50,018 nucleotides of DNA from an uncultured Methanomicrobiales archaeon (GTDB taxonomy: Archaea > Halobacteriota > Methanomicrobia > Methanomicrobiales > Methanospirillaceae), in the NCBI GenBank assembly GCA_903926075.1, contig CAIYHQ010000101.1, forward strand, positions 1-50,018, read 5' to 3'. A model generated the notes under the pieces. That model was given only the letters and a program-made list of their open reading frames with translations. It had not been told where the DNA came from and did no database searches. Below, piece by piece: positions 3,774-12,566 of this stretch (the stretch's first letter is position 1; every line of letters starts with the position of its first letter). The position numbers were made by a program, and so were the translations under genes.

Positions 3774-3864
3774 ATTAAGGGCAGGTTAATTGATAAAGTA
3801 TGGGGCCTTCTCCCTTTTTAGAGTGAGTTTGGCCCCTAATCTTGCAAGAAAAAAAGTGATTACC

Positions 3865-5028
3865 ATGAAAAATGAAATGACTTATGGAATATTTCTTCTC
3901 TGTATTGTATTGCTAATGTTGTTTTTCAGTGGTTGCGTCAGCAATAATAATCCTGCACAACCTGTTGTTAATCCTGTTGAAACTTTAGCAACGGTTTCTG
4001 CTCTGGCCACTCCTGTACAAGTGTTAAGTACTGAAATCCCCACTGCAAATGTTACAGTGAATGCGACAGTCCCGGTAAACGCAATAGTTCCGTTAAATGT
4101 TACACCAGAGATAACTCCGGCTGCTCCGGTTGTATCGATTGATAAGAAAAATCTCCTTATTGTGACAACTGATTCATTTGCTGGCACAGTTGATGAATTA
4201 CAGAAAGCATTTGCTGCCCAGAACCCCGATGTTCTCGTCACTGTAATCACTGTTCCTGAAAGGAAAATATTGGATAACATTACTCTTCTGAAAAAAAGTG
4301 ATATAATTATCGGTTTTGAACCAAATACCGGGTCTAAATTAACTGGTGAAAACATCATTAACAAAACTGATATTATTACAGGAGACTCTGTTGTCCTTGC
4401 ATGGGATGGGACAAAAAACAGTGTTGAACCATTGAATGCAAATGACTGGTACTATTCGCTCTTTAAAAAAGGAGTAAAGTTAGTTATTCTAAATCCACAA
4501 AATGATCAACTAGGGGCGGAAGCACTTAGTGCTGTACACCTCTCTGACCGCTATTATGGCCTTTCACAGATATTCCCTACCTTAATTGGAAGAGAAAGCC
4601 AGATACTTAAGACAATGTCTGCAAATATTTACACAATTAATGTGACATTCCCTTTCAGCACTGGTACAAAACTAATATTTGCAAGCTCAAGGCCTGATGC
4701 TGTTGCATTCATTAAAAATGGATCAGCCCGGTATGGAATTCTATCAAGGAGCGTTGCAGAACAAAACGGACTTACTTATTTATCCCTCCCTCCGGAGATC
4801 GATTTATCCAACCTGTCTCTCGCGAAAATTTACAATACTGTGGCTATCAGGTATTTTGCAGGAACTAAAGGAAAAGAGACCGTCCAACCAATGGAATATG
4901 AGTTTTCATTCCCTGTTGAACACGAAATTACAGAACAAGCCACTAATTTCGGTAACTTCGTTATGGCAGAGAATGGCCAGGGGATTCTAAAATCCCTGGG
5001 CTACAATTCAACCTCTTCATCTACCTAA
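3865..5028 (+). CDS. ModA/WtpA-like substrate-binding lipoprotein
   Basis: A 387-residue exported lipoprotein. The start is ATG 3865, preceded by a GTGAT ribosome site; an in-frame TTG at 3790 would put 25 extra residues before the signal peptide and is less likely. Signal peptide with lipobox FSGC (C24), then a Thr/Pro/Val-rich spacer to ~90. The rest follows the type II periplasmic-binding fold of the WtpA/ModA tungstate-molybdate family: KNLLIVTTDSFAGTVDELQKA at the first lobe, NDWYYSLFK and NPQNDQLGAEA in the middle, and a YLSLPPEIDLSNL-type segment near the end. No ATPase or permease lies next to it; it sits behind two signalling genes, so it may present a ligand to a sensor or to a transporter encoded elsewhere. 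Family assignment rests on residue patterns and the ligand is not proven. Confidence 0.68.
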   Translation: MKNEMTYGIFLLCIVLLMLFFSGCVSNNNPAQPVVNPVETLATVSALATPVQVLSTEIPTANVTVNATVPVNAIVPLNVTPEITPAAPVVSIDKKNLLIVTTDSFAGTVDELQKAFAAQNPDVLVTVITVPERKILDNITLLKKSDIIIGFEPNTGSKLTGENIINKTDIITGDSVVLAWDGTKNSVEPLNANDWYYSLFKKGVKLVILNPQNDQLGAEALSAVHLSDRYYGLSQIFPTLIGRESQILKTMSANIYTINVTFPFSTGTKLIFASSRPDAVAFIKNGSARYGILSRSVAEQNGLTYLSLPPEIDLSNLSLAKIYNTVAIRYFAGTKGKETVQPMEYEFSFPVEHEITEQATNFGNFVMAENGQGILKSLGYNSTSSST

Positions 5029-5042: not shown

Positions 5043-7613
5043 CTATTCAGAATTTGGAATTATCCGGTACGAATTTTGAGGTACTGTTATCTCAAACCTG
5101 CAACCTTTTTTATAAATACCAGTCTCATGGATGGTCATCCCTGTTATAGAAAGGATCTCACGGGTAAGAAAGAGGCCAAACCCTGTATTTTTTCCGTGTC
5201 CACTATCAAATATCCTGTTCTTCTCTTTATCGGGTATCCCTTCGCCGTCATCTTCACAAAGTATAACGAGATTGTCTTCATTTGTTTCAATCCGGAACTG
5301 TATCTTTGTTGCTCCCTTTGAATGCCTGATGCTGTTATCAATAAGATTGTAGAATACTTTTTCAAGAAGTGGGTCGCCAAATATGCTTACGTTTTGACAG
5401 TCTACAATTAGGCTAATCTCTTCCAGGTCTGCTATTTCTGAAGCACGCCGTATTGTAACTGTTAAATCCTGCCATTCCGGGGATCTGACTCCGATGTTCT
5501 GGTAGTCCCTTGTAAAGGTTATCTGCCTCTGGATAACGAGAGCTGAGTCCTTCTCTTTTTTTACAAGATCAAGGAGAAACGGATCACTCACAGATTCTCC
5601 GACAACTGTGATATAACCGAGTAAGCGGGTAAGTTCATTGTTTATATCGTGGCGGGTAACCTGTGCAAGTAGATTTAGGCGTTTATTTGCCTGTTTCAGT
5701 GCATCTTCGGTAAGTTTTCTCTCTGTAATATCTCTTGAGATCCCTATTAATCCCTGGATGATTCCATCACTATCCCTTAAAGGAACTTTAGTGAAATGAA
5801 GAACTTTTGGAATTTTGTTAATTATAAATGTGCGTTCTCCTTCAATTACTTCACCTTCAAGGACACGCTCGTCAATCGCTTTCATTTCTTCACCGATAGG
5901 GTGGCCGTATACCGTAAGAACATCTCTATGAATGATAAGAGAGAGAGGAATTCCTAGCAATCTCTCAGTTGCTTCGTTAGCATCGATAAACCGGAGATTT
6001 TTATCCTGAATATATATTGCATCCCTTGCTGTACGGAATATTGTGCGATACCTCTCTTCACTCTCCTTTAAAGCAGATTCTATTCGGATTCTTATGATAA
6101 TATGAGTTATCTGGCTTGCAATGCTCTCGAGAGCCAGTCGTGATTCGCGTGGTATTGCCTCAATTGAGTGGGAGGCCATAAGAAATGTCCCGATAACCCA
6201 TCCTTCATGAAGAAGTGGTATAATAGCGATTGAAAGAATATCCTCCTCTTTAAGTCCGATTATCTCTTTTTCCCAACCTTTTGCCTTGCTATAATATGGA
6301 TAACCGTCACGTACAAGCCTCGCCTGTCGTGTTTCAGAAGAAAAGTGTGAAAGTTCTTTTTGCTTTTCTTCCTTGAAACCCGATGAAAAAACCAGATTTA
6401 AATCCCAGGTTGCCGGGTCCATAAGGTATACACAACCACAATCCATACCGGAAGCCCTAATAGCTGCCTGAATAGAAAGTGACAGGGCCTGGTCCAGGTC
6501 GCTTACCGCTCCAAGTAAAATTCCAAGGTCACGCTGGAGAAGCAGGTGCGAAGTAACTTCCCCTTTCTCAGAAACTTCTCTGCATACGCCTCGAAATCCG
6601 ATAAAATTTCCAAAGTCATCTGATATTACTGTTGCACTAGTCTCCAGGTTTATCATTTCCCCTTTCTTATGGACAATTTTCATATCGATAAGCAGGAAAC
6701 TTTCGTGATCATCGATGAGTTCTTCAAAAATTGGTTCGATACGGAGTCTATCGTCGGGCAGAATCAAGTCCAGTAGAGATCGCCCTAAAAGTTCTTCTGA
6801 TTCATATCCAATTAATTCTCCCGTGTTTTCACTTACAGATTGAAAATTACCCTGCTTGTCAAGTGTCCAGAGAAAACGGCGCGATGATTTGAAGAGTTCA
6901 TTCAATGGAGGGCCATTGTTAAAGTGGTCCGAGAGTAGGTTCCATTTATTGTAATCCTCTATTGAATGGTTTGTTAAAGCCCGGTTTCCATTTGAAAAGA
7001 ATTTAGAACCAGAACTTATTATTTCTTCACTTGTTTCTATGACTGTGTCCAGGCTATATTCGGGTTGAATCTGAACCGGATTTTTATTCTCTTCAAAGAG
7101 TATTATTGCCCCGGGCCTTGAATTAGGAAAGACAATGGATAAGCATCGAATTTTATAGGGGAATTTGTCGCCGTTATTAAAAATTTCAATCTCGAACTCA
7201 TATGAAGTCCCTGACAATGCCTTAAGTATCCCCTCCTCAAATTCTTCAGCAGCATCCTTATAAAACTGGGTAAACCGGATAGTGTTCTCAATAAGGTCCT
7301 CCCGCTTCATCTGTGTTAATTCCAGGAATTTTGAGTTGAGATCCTGGACAATACCTTCTTCATCAATTATAACGATTGCAGATGGCAGAAGTTCAAGCAT
7401 CTGGGTAACAGGGAGACGTTTTGTTGCTGTAAAGATCTTTGCCCTGCCATAATTTTTCACTTCGGCCTGACCTGAATGCACAAGGGAAGCAAGGTATTTA
7501 GCTGCAGAAATTCTGTTTATTGGAACTTTACGGGATATCTCTTCGATAGAGAGTCCTCTTGGATGAGCGTGCAGAATTTTTTGAATTGTGGCAAGAGGTC
7601 CTTCGGTTGACAT
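5043..7613 (-). CDS. HTH-PAS-PAS-GAF-PAS sensor histidine kinase
   Basis: An 856-residue soluble kinase with a DNA-binding head. Residues ~1-65 form a winged helix (LSIEEISRKVPINRISAAKYLASL, then a basic wing AEVKNYGRAKIF). Then PAS ~70-170, a linker, PAS ~235-355, GAF ~355-520 (CGCVYLMDPATWDL), PAS ~525-640, H-box LAQVTRHDINNEL with acceptor H655, and an HATPase with D-box CEDDGEGIP and G-box NTGFGLFLTREIL, all intact. There is no membrane helix and no receiver. A kinase that can bind DNA itself could act on promoters directly or bring phosphotransfer to DNA. It is convergent with the lipoprotein gene. Its upstream side is the duplicated small-RNA region; an AT-rich TATA-like stretch at 7689-7700 could be its promoter on this strand. 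Confidence 0.88.
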   Translation of the reverse strand: MSTEGPLATIQKILHAHPRGLSIEEISRKVPINRISAAKYLASLVHSGQAEVKNYGRAKIFTATKRLPVTQMLELLPSAIVIIDEEGIVQDLNSKFLELTQMKREDLIENTIRFTQFYKDAAEEFEEGILKALSGTSYEFEIEIFNNGDKFPYKIRCLSIVFPNSRPGAIILFEENKNPVQIQPEYSLDTVIETSEEIISSGSKFFSNGNRALTNHSIEDYNKWNLLSDHFNNGPPLNELFKSSRRFLWTLDKQGNFQSVSENTGELIGYESEELLGRSLLDLILPDDRLRIEPIFEELIDDHESFLLIDMKIVHKKGEMINLETSATVISDDFGNFIGFRGVCREVSEKGEVTSHLLLQRDLGILLGAVSDLDQALSLSIQAAIRASGMDCGCVYLMDPATWDLNLVFSSGFKEEKQKELSHFSSETRQARLVRDGYPYYSKAKGWEKEIIGLKEEDILSIAIIPLLHEGWVIGTFLMASHSIEAIPRESRLALESIASQITHIIIRIRIESALKESEERYRTIFRTARDAIYIQDKNLRFIDANEATERLLGIPLSLIIHRDVLTVYGHPIGEEMKAIDERVLEGEVIEGERTFIINKIPKVLHFTKVPLRDSDGIIQGLIGISRDITERKLTEDALKQANKRLNLLAQVTRHDINNELTRLLGYITVVGESVSDPFLLDLVKKEKDSALVIQRQITFTRDYQNIGVRSPEWQDLTVTIRRASEIADLEEISLIVDCQNVSIFGDPLLEKVFYNLIDNSIRHSKGATKIQFRIETNEDNLVILCEDDGEGIPDKEKNRIFDSGHGKNTGFGLFLTREILSITGMTIHETGIYKKGCRFEITVPQNSYRIIPNSE

Positions 7614-7735
7614 TTTTCATCTCGATATTTTCAATTCTGTATTCTCAGTTGAGACGAAAACGTATATTCTATATTGATGTGTTTGAAGTGATATATAATA
7701 ATGTGTAACACTATCCTATACTATTATTATATGCC

Positions 7736-7743
7736 ATTATATA
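7736..7743 (+). promoter_or_regulatory. TATA box of putative small RNA 1
   Basis: ATTATATA lies about 25 bases before the proposed RNA start near 7764, the usual archaeal box A distance. The same box is kept in the second copy at 8010-8017. No ribosome site or good start codon follows. Confidence 0.5.
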
Positions 7744-7763
7744 TTTACAAATAAATAAATATG

Positions 7764-7894
7764 CGGAAAGACAATTTAGAAAATAGAAGTTACTCATTCA
7801 ATAACATTACCCCACACTAATAATAGATGGCCACCTACCCCCTATCGGCCTGATACAATGTGTAACTTCTTTCCAGACACGTTCTTTTTTTTTT
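7764..7894 (+). ncRNA. Putative small RNA, copy 1
   Basis: Proposed ~125-130 nt RNA from just downstream of the TATA box to a run of ten T (7885-7894). Inverted arms GAAGTTAC (7786-7793) and GTAACTTC (7862-7869) would close a stem around an open region carrying CCACCTACCCCC (7831-7842). CCACCT is complementary to an AGGTGG-type ribosome-binding site. A 19-codon ORF starts at 7761, but indels break that frame in copy 2, so conservation favours RNA over protein. The role is inferred from pattern only. Confidence 0.5.
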
Positions 7895-8009
7895 ACGTAT
7901 CATATTGCTTTTTCATTTTTTATAATATAGCAGTTTGGGAGATTATTAAAAAACCCAGTCAATGATATACAATGTTGAATATCACAATCTACTATTATTA
8001 TAATATATC

Positions 8010-8017
8010 ATTATATA
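8010..8017 (+). promoter_or_regulatory. TATA box of putative small RNA 2
   Basis: ATTATATA equivalent to the box of copy 1, again about 25 bases before the proposed start near 8038. Confidence 0.48.
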
Positions 8018-8037
8018 ACAACAAATGAATAAATATA

Positions 8038-8173
8038 GGTGGTGAGAATATAGATGTAGAAGTTACCATTCAATACAATAACCCCCACATTATGAATATA
8101 CGACCACCTACCCCCCTACAGGTCAATTATTCAAAAAATGCGTAACTTCCTTCAAGACACGTTCAATTTTTTT
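8038..8173 (+). ncRNA. Putative small RNA, copy 2
   Basis: Second copy of the unit: arms GAAGTTAC (8059-8066) and GTAACTTC (8142-8149), the invariant CCACCTACCCCC at 8104-8115, AGACACGTTC, then T-runs at 8167-8173 and 8176-8181. Near its 5' end it carries AGGTGG (8038-8043), which could pair internally with CCACCT; copy 1 lacks this, so the two RNAs may differ in how exposed the C-rich motif is. Confidence 0.48.
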
Positions 8174-8204
8174 AATTTTTTCTCTTTTAATTGAAATGAT
8201 ATTA

Positions 8205-9071
8205 TTATAATATTTCTTTCAGGAGTTGTGGGATTTCAGATGGTTTTTGTGCAACTGGTGCATTAAGACGCCTAAGCCTTTCAATTTTTGAACGTGCATC
8301 ACCCTCTCCGCCTTCAATGATGGCACCTGCATGCCCCATGCGTTTCTCTTCCGGAGCACTTACTCCTGCAATATATGCTACAAGCGGGATCTCTGTCGAG
8401 CGGACTCCCTCCTCCTCAAGGTTCCCTCCCACCTCACCGATAATTACAACAGCATCGGTCTCTTTGTCGTCTTCAAAATGTGCAAGAACATCTGTAAATG
8501 TCTGTCCAATGACCGGGTCTCCGCCAATTCCAATAACTGTGCTCTGTCCGAAACCAGCTTTTGAAAGCAGGTCCACAACTTCATAAGTGAGAGTCCCGCT
8601 TCTTGAAATTACCCCTATATTTCCTTTGGTAAAGAGCTGACTAGGCATAATACCGAGTTTTATTTCACCTGGGGAAAGAAGACCAGGGCAGTTTGGCCCA
8701 ATAACCTCGCAATCATAAAGTTTTGCATATGCAACGGCTTTCATTACATCATGGACCGGGATATGTTCAGTAATTGCAACGACACAGTCAATTCCTGCTT
8801 CAGCAGATTCCATAATTGATTCGCAAGCTGCCTTTGCAGGAACAAAAAGAACAGCTTTTGTGGCACTAACTTCTGTCAGGGCTTCTTTTATAGTATTATA
8901 CACAGGAACGCCATGAACTTCCTGCCCTCCTTTTCCAGGTGTAACTCCGGCAACGACCCCTTTGCCGCCAACCGACTGAGCATATTCATTCATAAGCCTG
9001 ATATGAAACGCTCCCTGGTTCCCGGTTGCACCTGTAACTATAACTCCGTCAGTTCGTGAGCCGTAAATCAT
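8205..9071 (-). CDS. sucD: Succinate-CoA ligase, alpha subunit
   Basis: Alpha subunit (288 aa) of ADP/GDP-forming succinyl-CoA synthetase, interconverting succinate and succinyl-CoA with ATP or GTP. It carries the CoA-binding Rossmann motif VTGATGNQGAFH at the N-terminus, GPNCPGLLSPGE, and the phospho-histidine motif MGHAGAII with H247. The start is set by the ATGA overlap with sucC (bases 9068-9071) and an AGGTGG ribosome site just upstream; an in-frame ATG at 9086 would add five residues from inside sucC and cover that site. It is the last gene of the fumarase-kor-suc operon. In a methanogen it most likely runs toward succinyl-CoA, feeding KorABCD. The tandem small-RNA units follow on its 3' side. 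Confidence 0.95.
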   Translation of the reverse strand: MIYGSRTDGVIVTGATGNQGAFHIRLMNEYAQSVGGKGVVAGVTPGKGGQEVHGVPVYNTIKEALTEVSATKAVLFVPAKAACESIMESAEAGIDCVVAITEHIPVHDVMKAVAYAKLYDCEVIGPNCPGLLSPGEIKLGIMPSQLFTKGNIGVISRSGTLTYEVVDLLSKAGFGQSTVIGIGGDPVIGQTFTDVLAHFEDDKETDAVVIIGEVGGNLEEEGVRSTEIPLVAYIAGVSAPEEKRMGHAGAIIEGGEGDARSKIERLRRLNAPVAQKPSEIPQLLKEIL

Positions 9072-10684: not shown

Positions 10685-11469
10685 TTCCTGACTCCCATTG
10701 CGGGAAGTGAACGTTTTACTATCTCACCAAGGATTATGGTATCCTCTGGTAATTCATTTCCTTCCTCGCGCAACCTGTCGGCTTTCTGCTTTAAAACAGA
10801 ATGGGTTTTCATATAGTCTATCTGGTCTGTGACAGAGCGGTACTTGTTGCGGCGCCCGTAATTCGTCGGGCATTGGACTAGCACTTCAATAAAAGCAAGA
10901 CCTTTGGTAGAAAGGCCGCTAAATATCGCCTTTGTGAGCTCTTTAACATGAAATCCAGTCCAGCGGGCGACATAATTGGCCCCTGCAGCCTTTGCGAGTT
11001 CAGTGAGGTCAAATGCTGGTTCTACTGAACCAAAAGGAGTTGTTGTGGATAATTTCCCCATAGGGGTCGTAGGGCTCCCCTGTCCCCCGGTCATTCCATA
11101 GATCTGGTTATTCATGCAGATGACTGTAAGGTCGATATTTCTCCTGCATGCATGAATAAAATGATTTCCTCCAATCGCAGCAAGGTCACCGTCGCCAGTA
11201 ATAACAACCACATTAAGTGAGGGGTCAGCAAGTTTTACACCTGTTGCAAAAGCTATCGCGCGTCCATGTGTCGTATGCAGTGAGTCAGTGAGAACATATC
11301 CGGGTGCACGCGAAGAACACCCGATTCCGGAGACAAAAACTGTATTCGCGCGCTGCCACCCGATCTCATCAACGGCAGCCAGTGTACAGTTTACTACAGT
11401 TCCATTTCCGCAGCCTGCACACCATATATGGGGCAGCCGGTCTTTCCTGAGCCAATCATCTCCGCTCAT
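10681..11469 (-). CDS. korB: 2-oxoglutarate:ferredoxin oxidoreductase, beta subunit
   Basis: Thiamine-diphosphate-binding beta subunit (262 aa). Visible: cysteine motif WCAGCGNG (residues 16-23), the TPP motif GDGD at 92-95 followed by N120-N121 (CMNNQIYGMTGGQ), and PTTPMGKLSTTTPFG. The short length fits the four-subunit type with a separate ferredoxin. ATGA overlaps join it to korA upstream and korC downstream. Confidence 0.94.
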   Translation of the reverse strand: MSGDDWLRKDRLPHIWCAGCGNGTVVNCTLAAVDEIGWQRANTVFVSGIGCSSRAPGYVLTDSLHTTHGRAIAFATGVKLADPSLNVVVITGDGDLAAIGGNHFIHACRRNIDLTVICMNNQIYGMTGGQGSPTTPMGKLSTTTPFGSVEPAFDLTELAKAAGANYVARWTGFHVKELTKAIFSGLSTKGLAFIEVLVQCPTNYGRRNKYRSVTDQIDYMKTHSVLKQKADRLREEGNELPEDTIILGEIVKRSLPAMGVRK

Positions 11470-12566
11470 AAGTACCTCTCTGTGATTTCCCAGAGTTCCT
11501 GGGGCAAGTGGAGATTGCCTCCAATTTTTGGAATTGAGATTACTGGTATCCGGGTATGCCGTTCAATCTCGCGTGAGATCTGTCCCAGGTTTAATTCAGG
11601 AAAAAGAAAAACTTCTGCGTTTGGAAATTGTGAAAGGCATCTCTCTCCGAAAGGCCAGACAGTCTTTAAACGGAGGTGACCTATCTGTGCCTCCGGATGA
11701 TCATGGAGCATCTGCTCTACTGCTCTTGCTGGTGCACCATATGAAATAAAAACAACTTTGGAGTCAGTATTTATGGTTTCAAACAGGGATATCTCGTCCC
11801 GCACAGACTCAACTTTGTTAAAAAGTCTTGTGACCAGTTTCTCATGCATCTCAGGGTTTGTTGTGCAGGGATAACCCCGGTCATCATGGGTCAGTCCGGT
11901 CACATGCACTGCATAACCTTTTCCAAAGGTTGGAAATCCGGGTATAAGGTCACAACCTGCCCTGAAAGGATGTGTCGGATCAATAACAGGTTTTCTTTCG
12001 CTTAACTGGACTTTATCCGGGACCTCTATCCTCTCTCTCATGTGGCCGATTATTTCATCAGCCATTATGAATACCGGGACCCTGTAAATATCCGCGAGAT
12101 TAAAAGCATGGACCGTGAGGCTGTACATCTCTTCAACGCTTGCAGGGACAAGTGCAATAGGACTGATATCACCATGCGAACCATACCTGCACTGGAGCAT
12201 ATCTCCCTGGCCTGCCATTGTGGGCTGGCCAGTGCTCGGTCCACCGCGTTGAATGTTTACAATAACGCAGGGCGTTTCAGTCATAAGGGCAAACCCGATG
12301 TTTTCCATCATGAGTGAAAAACCCGGGCCGCTCGTTGCGGTCATAGCCCTTTTACCCGCCCACGAAGCTCCGATTACCGACGCAATACCGCCTATCTCAT
12401 CCTCCATCTGTACAAATACGCCACCCGCTTTTGGTAGACTACGGGCCATATGCTCTGCTATTTCGGTTGAAGGAGTGATAGGATACCCCCCGAAAAAACG
12501 GCACCCTGCAGCAAGAGCACCCTCAGCACAGGCAGTATTACCCTGCCAGAACTCGACTCTGCTCAA
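11466..12566 (-). CDS. korA: 2-oxoglutarate:ferredoxin oxidoreductase, alpha subunit
   Basis: Alpha subunit (366 aa), binding the pyrimidine half of TPP and the oxoacid. Conserved segments: FWQGNTACAEGALAAGCRFFGGYPITPSTEI in pieces near the N-terminus, MEDEIGGIASVIGASWAGKRAMTATSGPG in the PYR domain, and a transketolase C-like domain near the end (VFISYGAPARAVEQM, LKTVWPF). It overlaps korD and korB by four bases each. Confidence 0.94.
   Translation of the reverse strand: MSRVEFWQGNTACAEGALAAGCRFFGGYPITPSTEIAEHMARSLPKAGGVFVQMEDEIGGIASVIGASWAGKRAMTATSGPGFSLMMENIGFALMTETPCVIVNIQRGGPSTGQPTMAGQGDMLQCRYGSHGDISPIALVPASVEEMYSLTVHAFNLADIYRVPVFIMADEIIGHMRERIEVPDKVQLSERKPVIDPTHPFRAGCDLIPGFPTFGKGYAVHVTGLTHDDRGYPCTTNPEMHEKLVTRLFNKVESVRDEISLFETINTDSKVVFISYGAPARAVEQMLHDHPEAQIGHLRLKTVWPFGERCLSQFPNAEVFLFPELNLGQISREIERHTRIPVISIPKIGGNLHLPQELWEITERYL

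Follow-up and report, generated by a model that had tools for sequence, protein, structure and literature searches.

Tandem copies between a histidine kinase gene and sucD in a Methanomicrobiales archaeon are predicted sibling small RNA genes

An AT-rich gap of 591 bp in the DNA of an uncultured Methanomicrobiales archaeon (assembly GCA_903926075.1) holds two similar stretches of about 210 bp, and the question raised by this locus is what these stretches encode, if anything. A PAS/GAF histidine kinase gene (5043-7613) begins at one border of the gap and sucD ends at the other (at 8205), both genes being on the minus strand. It lies on contig CAIYHQ010000101.1 (C101), referred to here as the window (50,018 nucleotides), which belongs to a 3.14-Mb genome that is about 97% complete; the name of the order was taken from named sucD relatives. 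A first-pass annotation, made from the sequence without database searches, had proposed that the stretches are paralogous genes for regulatory RNAs that mask ribosome sites with an anti-Shine-Dalgarno (anti-SD) motif. Our analysis indicates that they are probably sibling small RNA (sRNA) genes on the plus strand, and we give roughly even chances to the fuller explanation, in which the C-rich loops of the two sibling sRNAs would block ribosome-binding regions.

Tandem duplication and conserved blocks

The two copies (7687-7893 and 7961-8173) are offset by 272-280 bp, corresponding to a unit of about 274 bp, and share approximately 69% identity across the aligned unit. A BLASTN comparison of copy 1 with the whole genome yielded copy 2 at E = 5e-25 and otherwise nothing notable, bearing out the tandem arrangement seen in the first pass. 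Both copies carry, on the plus strand, CATTATATA, GAAGTTAC, CCACCTACCCCC, GTAACTTC, AGACACGTTC and a T-run, so that the TATA box, the two arms, the C-rich motif, the 3' box and the T-run ascribed to each copy were all found.

Identical columns of the alignment are clustered: seven blocks of at least eight columns comprise 67 columns in total, versus 35 expected (permutation, p = 0.0098). These blocks are CATTATATA (the TATA box), AATAAATAT, TAGAAGTTAC, CATTCAATA, CCACCTACCCCC, GTAACTTC and AGACACGTTC (directly ahead of the T-run), and they coincide with the parts expected of a gene, namely the TATA box, the arms of a closing stem, a C-rich loop and the 3' box. Columns with G or C are conserved in 32 of 51 cases in the body of the unit versus 10 of 28 in its promoter half (p = 0.03). 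The pattern of CCACCTACCCCC, allowing at most one mismatch, occurs in the window only in the two copies (0.1 expected) and at seven places genome-wide. This 12-column run is identical in both copies, as had been claimed, but its length is no surprise (permutation p = 0.57; mean longest run by chance, 12.5): taken alone it is weak evidence, because a run of 12 columns is expected at about 69% identity.

The chance length of the longest run and the modest overall identity would also fit an intergenic region that was duplicated in tandem, has since decayed and now has no function, as would the lack of homologs in relatives in the searches described below. We consider such decay improbable, since the clustered columns match the TATA box, both arms, the loop and the 3' box, and one base pair of the predicted RNA has changed in a compensatory manner.

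The arms of copy 1 form an inverted repeat of 14 nucleotides (7785-7798/7857-7870) that is 93% complementary, which could be taken as the mark of a mobile element resembling a miniature inverted-repeat transposable element with the ends GAAGTTAC/GTAACTTC. The duplicated unit, spanning the region from the promoter through the terminator, extends well past both arms, and the 3.14-Mb genome contains no further copy. Because the repeat unit overruns the arms and dispersed copies are lacking, the arms are not transposon ends, and this explanation is largely refuted.

Small-peptide genes are just as hard to credit. Short ATG frames are present in both copies (35 amino acids from 7858 and 18 amino acids from 8138), and these two ATGs are the only ones at a matching aligned position. 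Yet the first nine aligned codons differ at three places, each time by a non-synonymous change, the frames differ in length, neither ATG is preceded by a ribosome site, and indels break the other frames. The copies are thus non-coding, in line with the earlier observation that no reading frame is kept. A coding frame or transposon ends, the findings that the first-pass annotation had set against its own proposal, were not seen, as no frame is shared between the copies and no dispersed copies occur.

Predicted transcripts and RNA structure

Transcription starts were placed using the usual archaeal TATA spacing of 26-27 nucleotides. The TATA-box-like element of copy 1 (7737-7747, plus strand, inside CATTATATATTT), which includes the conserved block CATTATATA, predicts a start at about 7763-7782; that of copy 2 (8009-8019, plus strand, CATTATATAAC), likewise a conserved block, predicts a start at about 8035-8044. 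The box AGACACGUUC with its T-run, aligned at 7875-7893 and 8155-8173 on the plus strand, is a predicted terminator, and the genome contains exactly two exact occurrences of it; the best additional match, inside an RtcB-like gene, was rejected as due to chance. We infer that each copy has a TATA box promoter of its own, from which plus-strand transcription proceeds to the oligo-T terminator. Together with the folds, these signals delimit a predicted sRNA 1 at 7768-7893 (about 115-131 nucleotides depending on the start chosen), ending in the T-run, and a predicted sRNA 2 at 8041-8173 (about 130-139 nucleotides).

The sequence AGGTGGT at 8037-8043, just 5' of the TATA-predicted start of copy 2, is a perfect complement of ACCACCT in the loop of that same copy and has no counterpart in copy 1. 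Transcription from 8035 would include it and would disturb the fold of copy 2. It could be a chance occurrence, or it could serve self-regulation given an earlier transcription start.

A common plus-strand fold is available to both copies. In this fold, GAAGUUAC and GUAACUUC pair as the closing stem, which CAUU/AAUG extends inward, and a small hairpin lies inside. The 5' arm GAAGUUAC, the same in both copies, lies at 7786-7793 in copy 1 (with CAUU at 7795-7798) and at 8059-8066 in copy 2, and the 3' arm GUAACUUC lies at 7862-7869 and 8142-8149, respectively, as located by the alignment and, in copy 1, by the inverted repeat. The folding energy is -16.8 kcal/mol for copy 1 (7783-7896; z = -2.48 relative to shuffled sequences) and -17.2 kcal/mol for copy 2 (8055-8176; z = -3.63). 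The small hairpin, GGCC-ACCUACCCCCUAUC-GGCC in the minimum-energy fold of copy 1 (7829-7850), corresponds in alignment and fold to GACC-ACCUACCCCCCUACA-GGUC in copy 2 (8102-8124), so that one G-C pair is replaced by an A-U pair. As it comes from two sequences only, the conserved fold is at most suggestive.

The hairpin displays the candidate seed CCACCUACCCCC (7831-7842 in copy 1 and 8104-8115 in copy 2), identified by alignment and pattern search. Within its loop, ACCUACCCCC is unpaired with a probability of 0.99 for every copy 1 start; for copy 2, three starts were tested, of which two gave 0.99 and the one at 8035 gave 0.70. A second C-rich single-stranded segment, ACCCC(C)ACA, is present in the large loop of both copies: UUACCCCACA at 7807-7816 (ACCCC at 7809-7813, unpaired with a probability of 0.95) and ACCCCCACA at 8081-8089 (ACCCC, 0.97 for the TATA-predicted start and 0.67 for the earliest start). 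The compensatory hairpin and this second segment, as well as the restriction to one genome reported below, are additions to the first-pass annotation.

Both genes flanking the pair are on the minus strand, which raises the possibility of a minus-strand element, such as a terminator or 3' untranslated region belonging to the operon that ends with sucD, or a set of DNA-binding repeats upstream of the kinase gene. A minus-strand hairpin of copy 2 (8054-8090; 16 pairs including G-U), downstream of sucD, may be such an operon-end structure. This hairpin has no T-run, however, the minus-strand z-scores are weaker (-1.45 and -2.12), and the TATA boxes and T-runs of both copies face the plus strand; we regard a minus-strand role as quite improbable.

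The reading of the copies as paralogous sRNA genes is well supported, because promoter, stem, loop and T-run are kept together, the z-scores are about -2.5 and -3.6, one pair is compensatory, and neither a coding frame nor transposon-like copies were found. The whole unit, from promoter to terminator, would have been duplicated in tandem, giving rise to two sibling non-coding RNA genes. Each RNA would comprise about 115-135 nucleotides, with an 8-bp closing stem extended by four inner base pairs and with two C-rich stretches left unpaired: the large loop would expose ACCCC(C)ACA, and the small hairpin would expose ACCUACCCCC in its own loop.

Search for homologs

Neither BLASTN nor a covariance model detected further copies in the 3.14-Mb genome besides the tandem pair. 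A BLASTN search of 100 relatives with the body of the copies returned chance-level matches only, and a pattern made of the arms and the box gave, over 232 genomes of the order, a single match that was unrelated and due to chance (in G007). The covariance-model search for homologs in relatives, which had been suggested along with the initial prediction, was run on 231 genomes of the order and, using laxer filters, on 31, and found none; the best match, partial and unconvincing, had 21.8 bits and E = 0.8 (in G006). A pattern scan of GTDB 220 contigs produced zero matches. In viral contigs, a first scan yielded zero matches and a scan with a loose pattern yielded twelve, none of which was confirmed by the covariance model. 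Rfam release 15 (4227 models) had no match in the window at the gathering threshold; the best sub-threshold matches in the region 7600-8300 were on the minus strand (22.7 bits versus a threshold of 60, and 19.3 versus 50).

The tandem pair is thus confined to this genome among those searched, being absent from 230 others of the order, a set in which the same genus had no other member and sister species were unrepresented. In relatives, the genes downstream of sucD differ from those at this locus.

Candidate targets and the adjacent operon

The minus-strand neighbors of the pair are fumA, fumB (both identified by hand), korD, korA, korB, korC, sucC and sucD. The last gene of this fum-kor-suc operon is sucD (8205-9071; NCBIfam succinate-CoA ligase alpha), and korA (11466-12566) encodes the alpha subunit of a 2-oxoacid:acceptor oxidoreductase. 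Elsewhere in the window, at 3790-5028, a protein is weakly similar to the tungstate-binding WtpA (101 bits versus a curated cut-off of 355), and Pfam assigns it an SBP_bac_11 domain only.

In the proposed mechanism, the C-rich loops would base-pair with mRNAs at their G-rich ribosome-binding regions and thereby block translation, the two copies acting redundantly or additively. As a background for pairing energies we used 328 start regions from 20 stretches (400 kb) of the same genome. The best-pairing candidate near the pair is the korA start region CACAGGGTGGTGGTTGAAGATTG (-15.5 to -18.6 kcal/mol): korA (AGGGUGGUGG ahead of UUG) is equalled or beaten by one to eight of the background regions, and sucD (AGGUGGU ahead of AUG) by seven to 19, depending on the query. 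GGTGG occurs in three of eight operon start regions versus nine of 328 in the background, a post hoc comparison. The C-rich motif favors start regions over coding sequence (318 pairs, p = 0.0008; 1e-9 for the anti-SD control). Among possible targets, korA, sucD and perhaps korD are the nearest suggestive candidates. As to korC, its first match arose from an internal ATG, and it was dropped.

Several results weigh against specific masking of ribosome sites by the pair. The operon as a whole does not surpass the background in pairing to a significant degree (p between 0.06 and 0.14), and shuffled queries are often its equal. The same preference for start regions was observed in 33 of 60 shuffles of the motif letters, and because these do equally well, a sequence-specific aim of the C-rich loop is not supported. 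Perfect 9-nucleotide complements GGTRGGTGG are not enriched genome-wide (23 versus 27 for the reversed pattern), and no clear ribosome site was noticed among the listed matches. The AGGTGG at the sucD start, which had been put forward as an example of a site that CCACCT can pair with, is real, but it is no sign of co-evolution because GGTGG is found at this position in 16 of the 42 sucD loci examined (this species counted), including those of relatives that do not have the RNA. Finally, no homologs were found, and therefore the evolutionary evidence consists of two paralogs and one compensatory pair only.

The anti-SD character of the motif is likewise partial. The usual archaeal anti-SD is AUCACCUCCU, and CCACCU overlaps it in CACCU only; an archaeal 16S rRNA gene, from which the anti-SD of the host could be read, did not turn up in this assembly. 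Target prediction with the C-rich segment, which the first-pass annotation had recommended, ranks korA and sucD high, but the searches of the window, of the genome with the pattern, and of the 328-gene set show no specific enrichment. Masking of ribosome sites is plausible given the preference for start regions, although its specificity does not exceed that of shuffled motifs. By analogy with known sRNAs we consider it the most likely mode of action, at about even chances, and it is doubtful that the adjacent fum-kor-suc operon is the specific target.

The absence of a start-region preference beyond C content, and of an enrichment of perfect complements, would fit sibling sRNAs whose C-rich loops are a sponge for another RNA or the binding site of a protein, such as one of the KH type or another single-strand C-binding one. 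Two open C-rich repeats per RNA, present in two copies, would suit a sponge, and a possible pairing partner for the loop is a G-rich intergenic repeat (GTAAGTACTTACGGGGGTGGGTGG), copies of which lie elsewhere in the genome. Against this stand the high pairing ranks of korA and sucD, and neither a partner protein nor a partner RNA was identified; we see protein binding or sponging as a tentative alternative to the masking of ribosome sites, of lower probability.

The dispersed intergenic repeat CCAAGCGTGTAAGTACTTACGGG.TGGGTGGGTGGAACTGTTCAC...TAACCGACGG, which carries the G-rich stretch able to pair with the sRNA loop, is present in several copies on contigs C47, C102 and C133 (L145, L153, L158), with more matches on C128. 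In two paralogous regulator-like genes (L136 and L147, with the protein start LYVDDE...), AGGTAGGTGGTGAT is found antisense at an equivalent position, most likely owing to shared coding sequence.

Comparison with known sRNAs

In anatomy, the nearest described case that we found comes from Sinorhizobium meliloti, whose siblings AbcR1/AbcR2, of 121 and 114 nucleotides, are encoded in tandem in one intergenic region, carry two anti-SD motifs each and are described as regulating metabolism (PMC8844928). The archaeal pair resembles it in architecture: two homologous predicted sRNA genes of similar length in tandem, with two C-rich motifs each, one of which is displayed by a hairpin loop. The AbcR sRNAs differ in being bacterial and Hfq-bound, and their motifs CUCCUCCC and UUCCCCUC are a purer anti-SD than CCACCUACCCCC. 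The archaeal pair has no match to any Rfam family; its likeness to AbcR is one of architecture, and it is not assigned as a member.

In proposed action and type of host, the pair most resembles sRNA41 of Methanosarcina mazei, for which a masking of ribosome sites in polycistronic mRNAs has been proposed (PMC5867862). The target suggested here would likewise be a polycistronic operon of carbon metabolism. The host of sRNA41 belongs to a different order, Methanosarcinales, and sRNA41 is known as a single gene. Again the likeness lies in the proposed action, the archaeal pair has no Rfam match, and membership is not assigned. A third parallel is offered by the alpha-R8 siblings SisA-D of Caulobacter crescentus, which have in common an unpaired, C-rich core for pairing with mRNAs, UUUCCUCCCU (PMC12559287). 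They differ from the archaeal pair in being four, bacterial and Hfq-dependent, and in having CrfA as their sponge RNA; for the archaeal pair, no partner of this kind was identified.

Implications

Pending a transcript, the pair remains a good prediction. The most specific version of it, a lineage-specific tandem sRNA pair with double C-rich loops that would repress the adjacent operon of the reductive tricarboxylic acid branch (korDABC-sucCD) by simultaneously masking ribosome sites at several cistrons, AbcR-like but of independent archaeal origin, is speculative and rather unlikely. Outside Methanosarcina and the haloarchaea, the number of known archaeal regulatory RNAs is small. If true, the proposed function would make this locus a compact test case for control by masking of ribosome-binding sites in Methanomicrobiales, and also for an independent origin of an AbcR-like system in Archaea.
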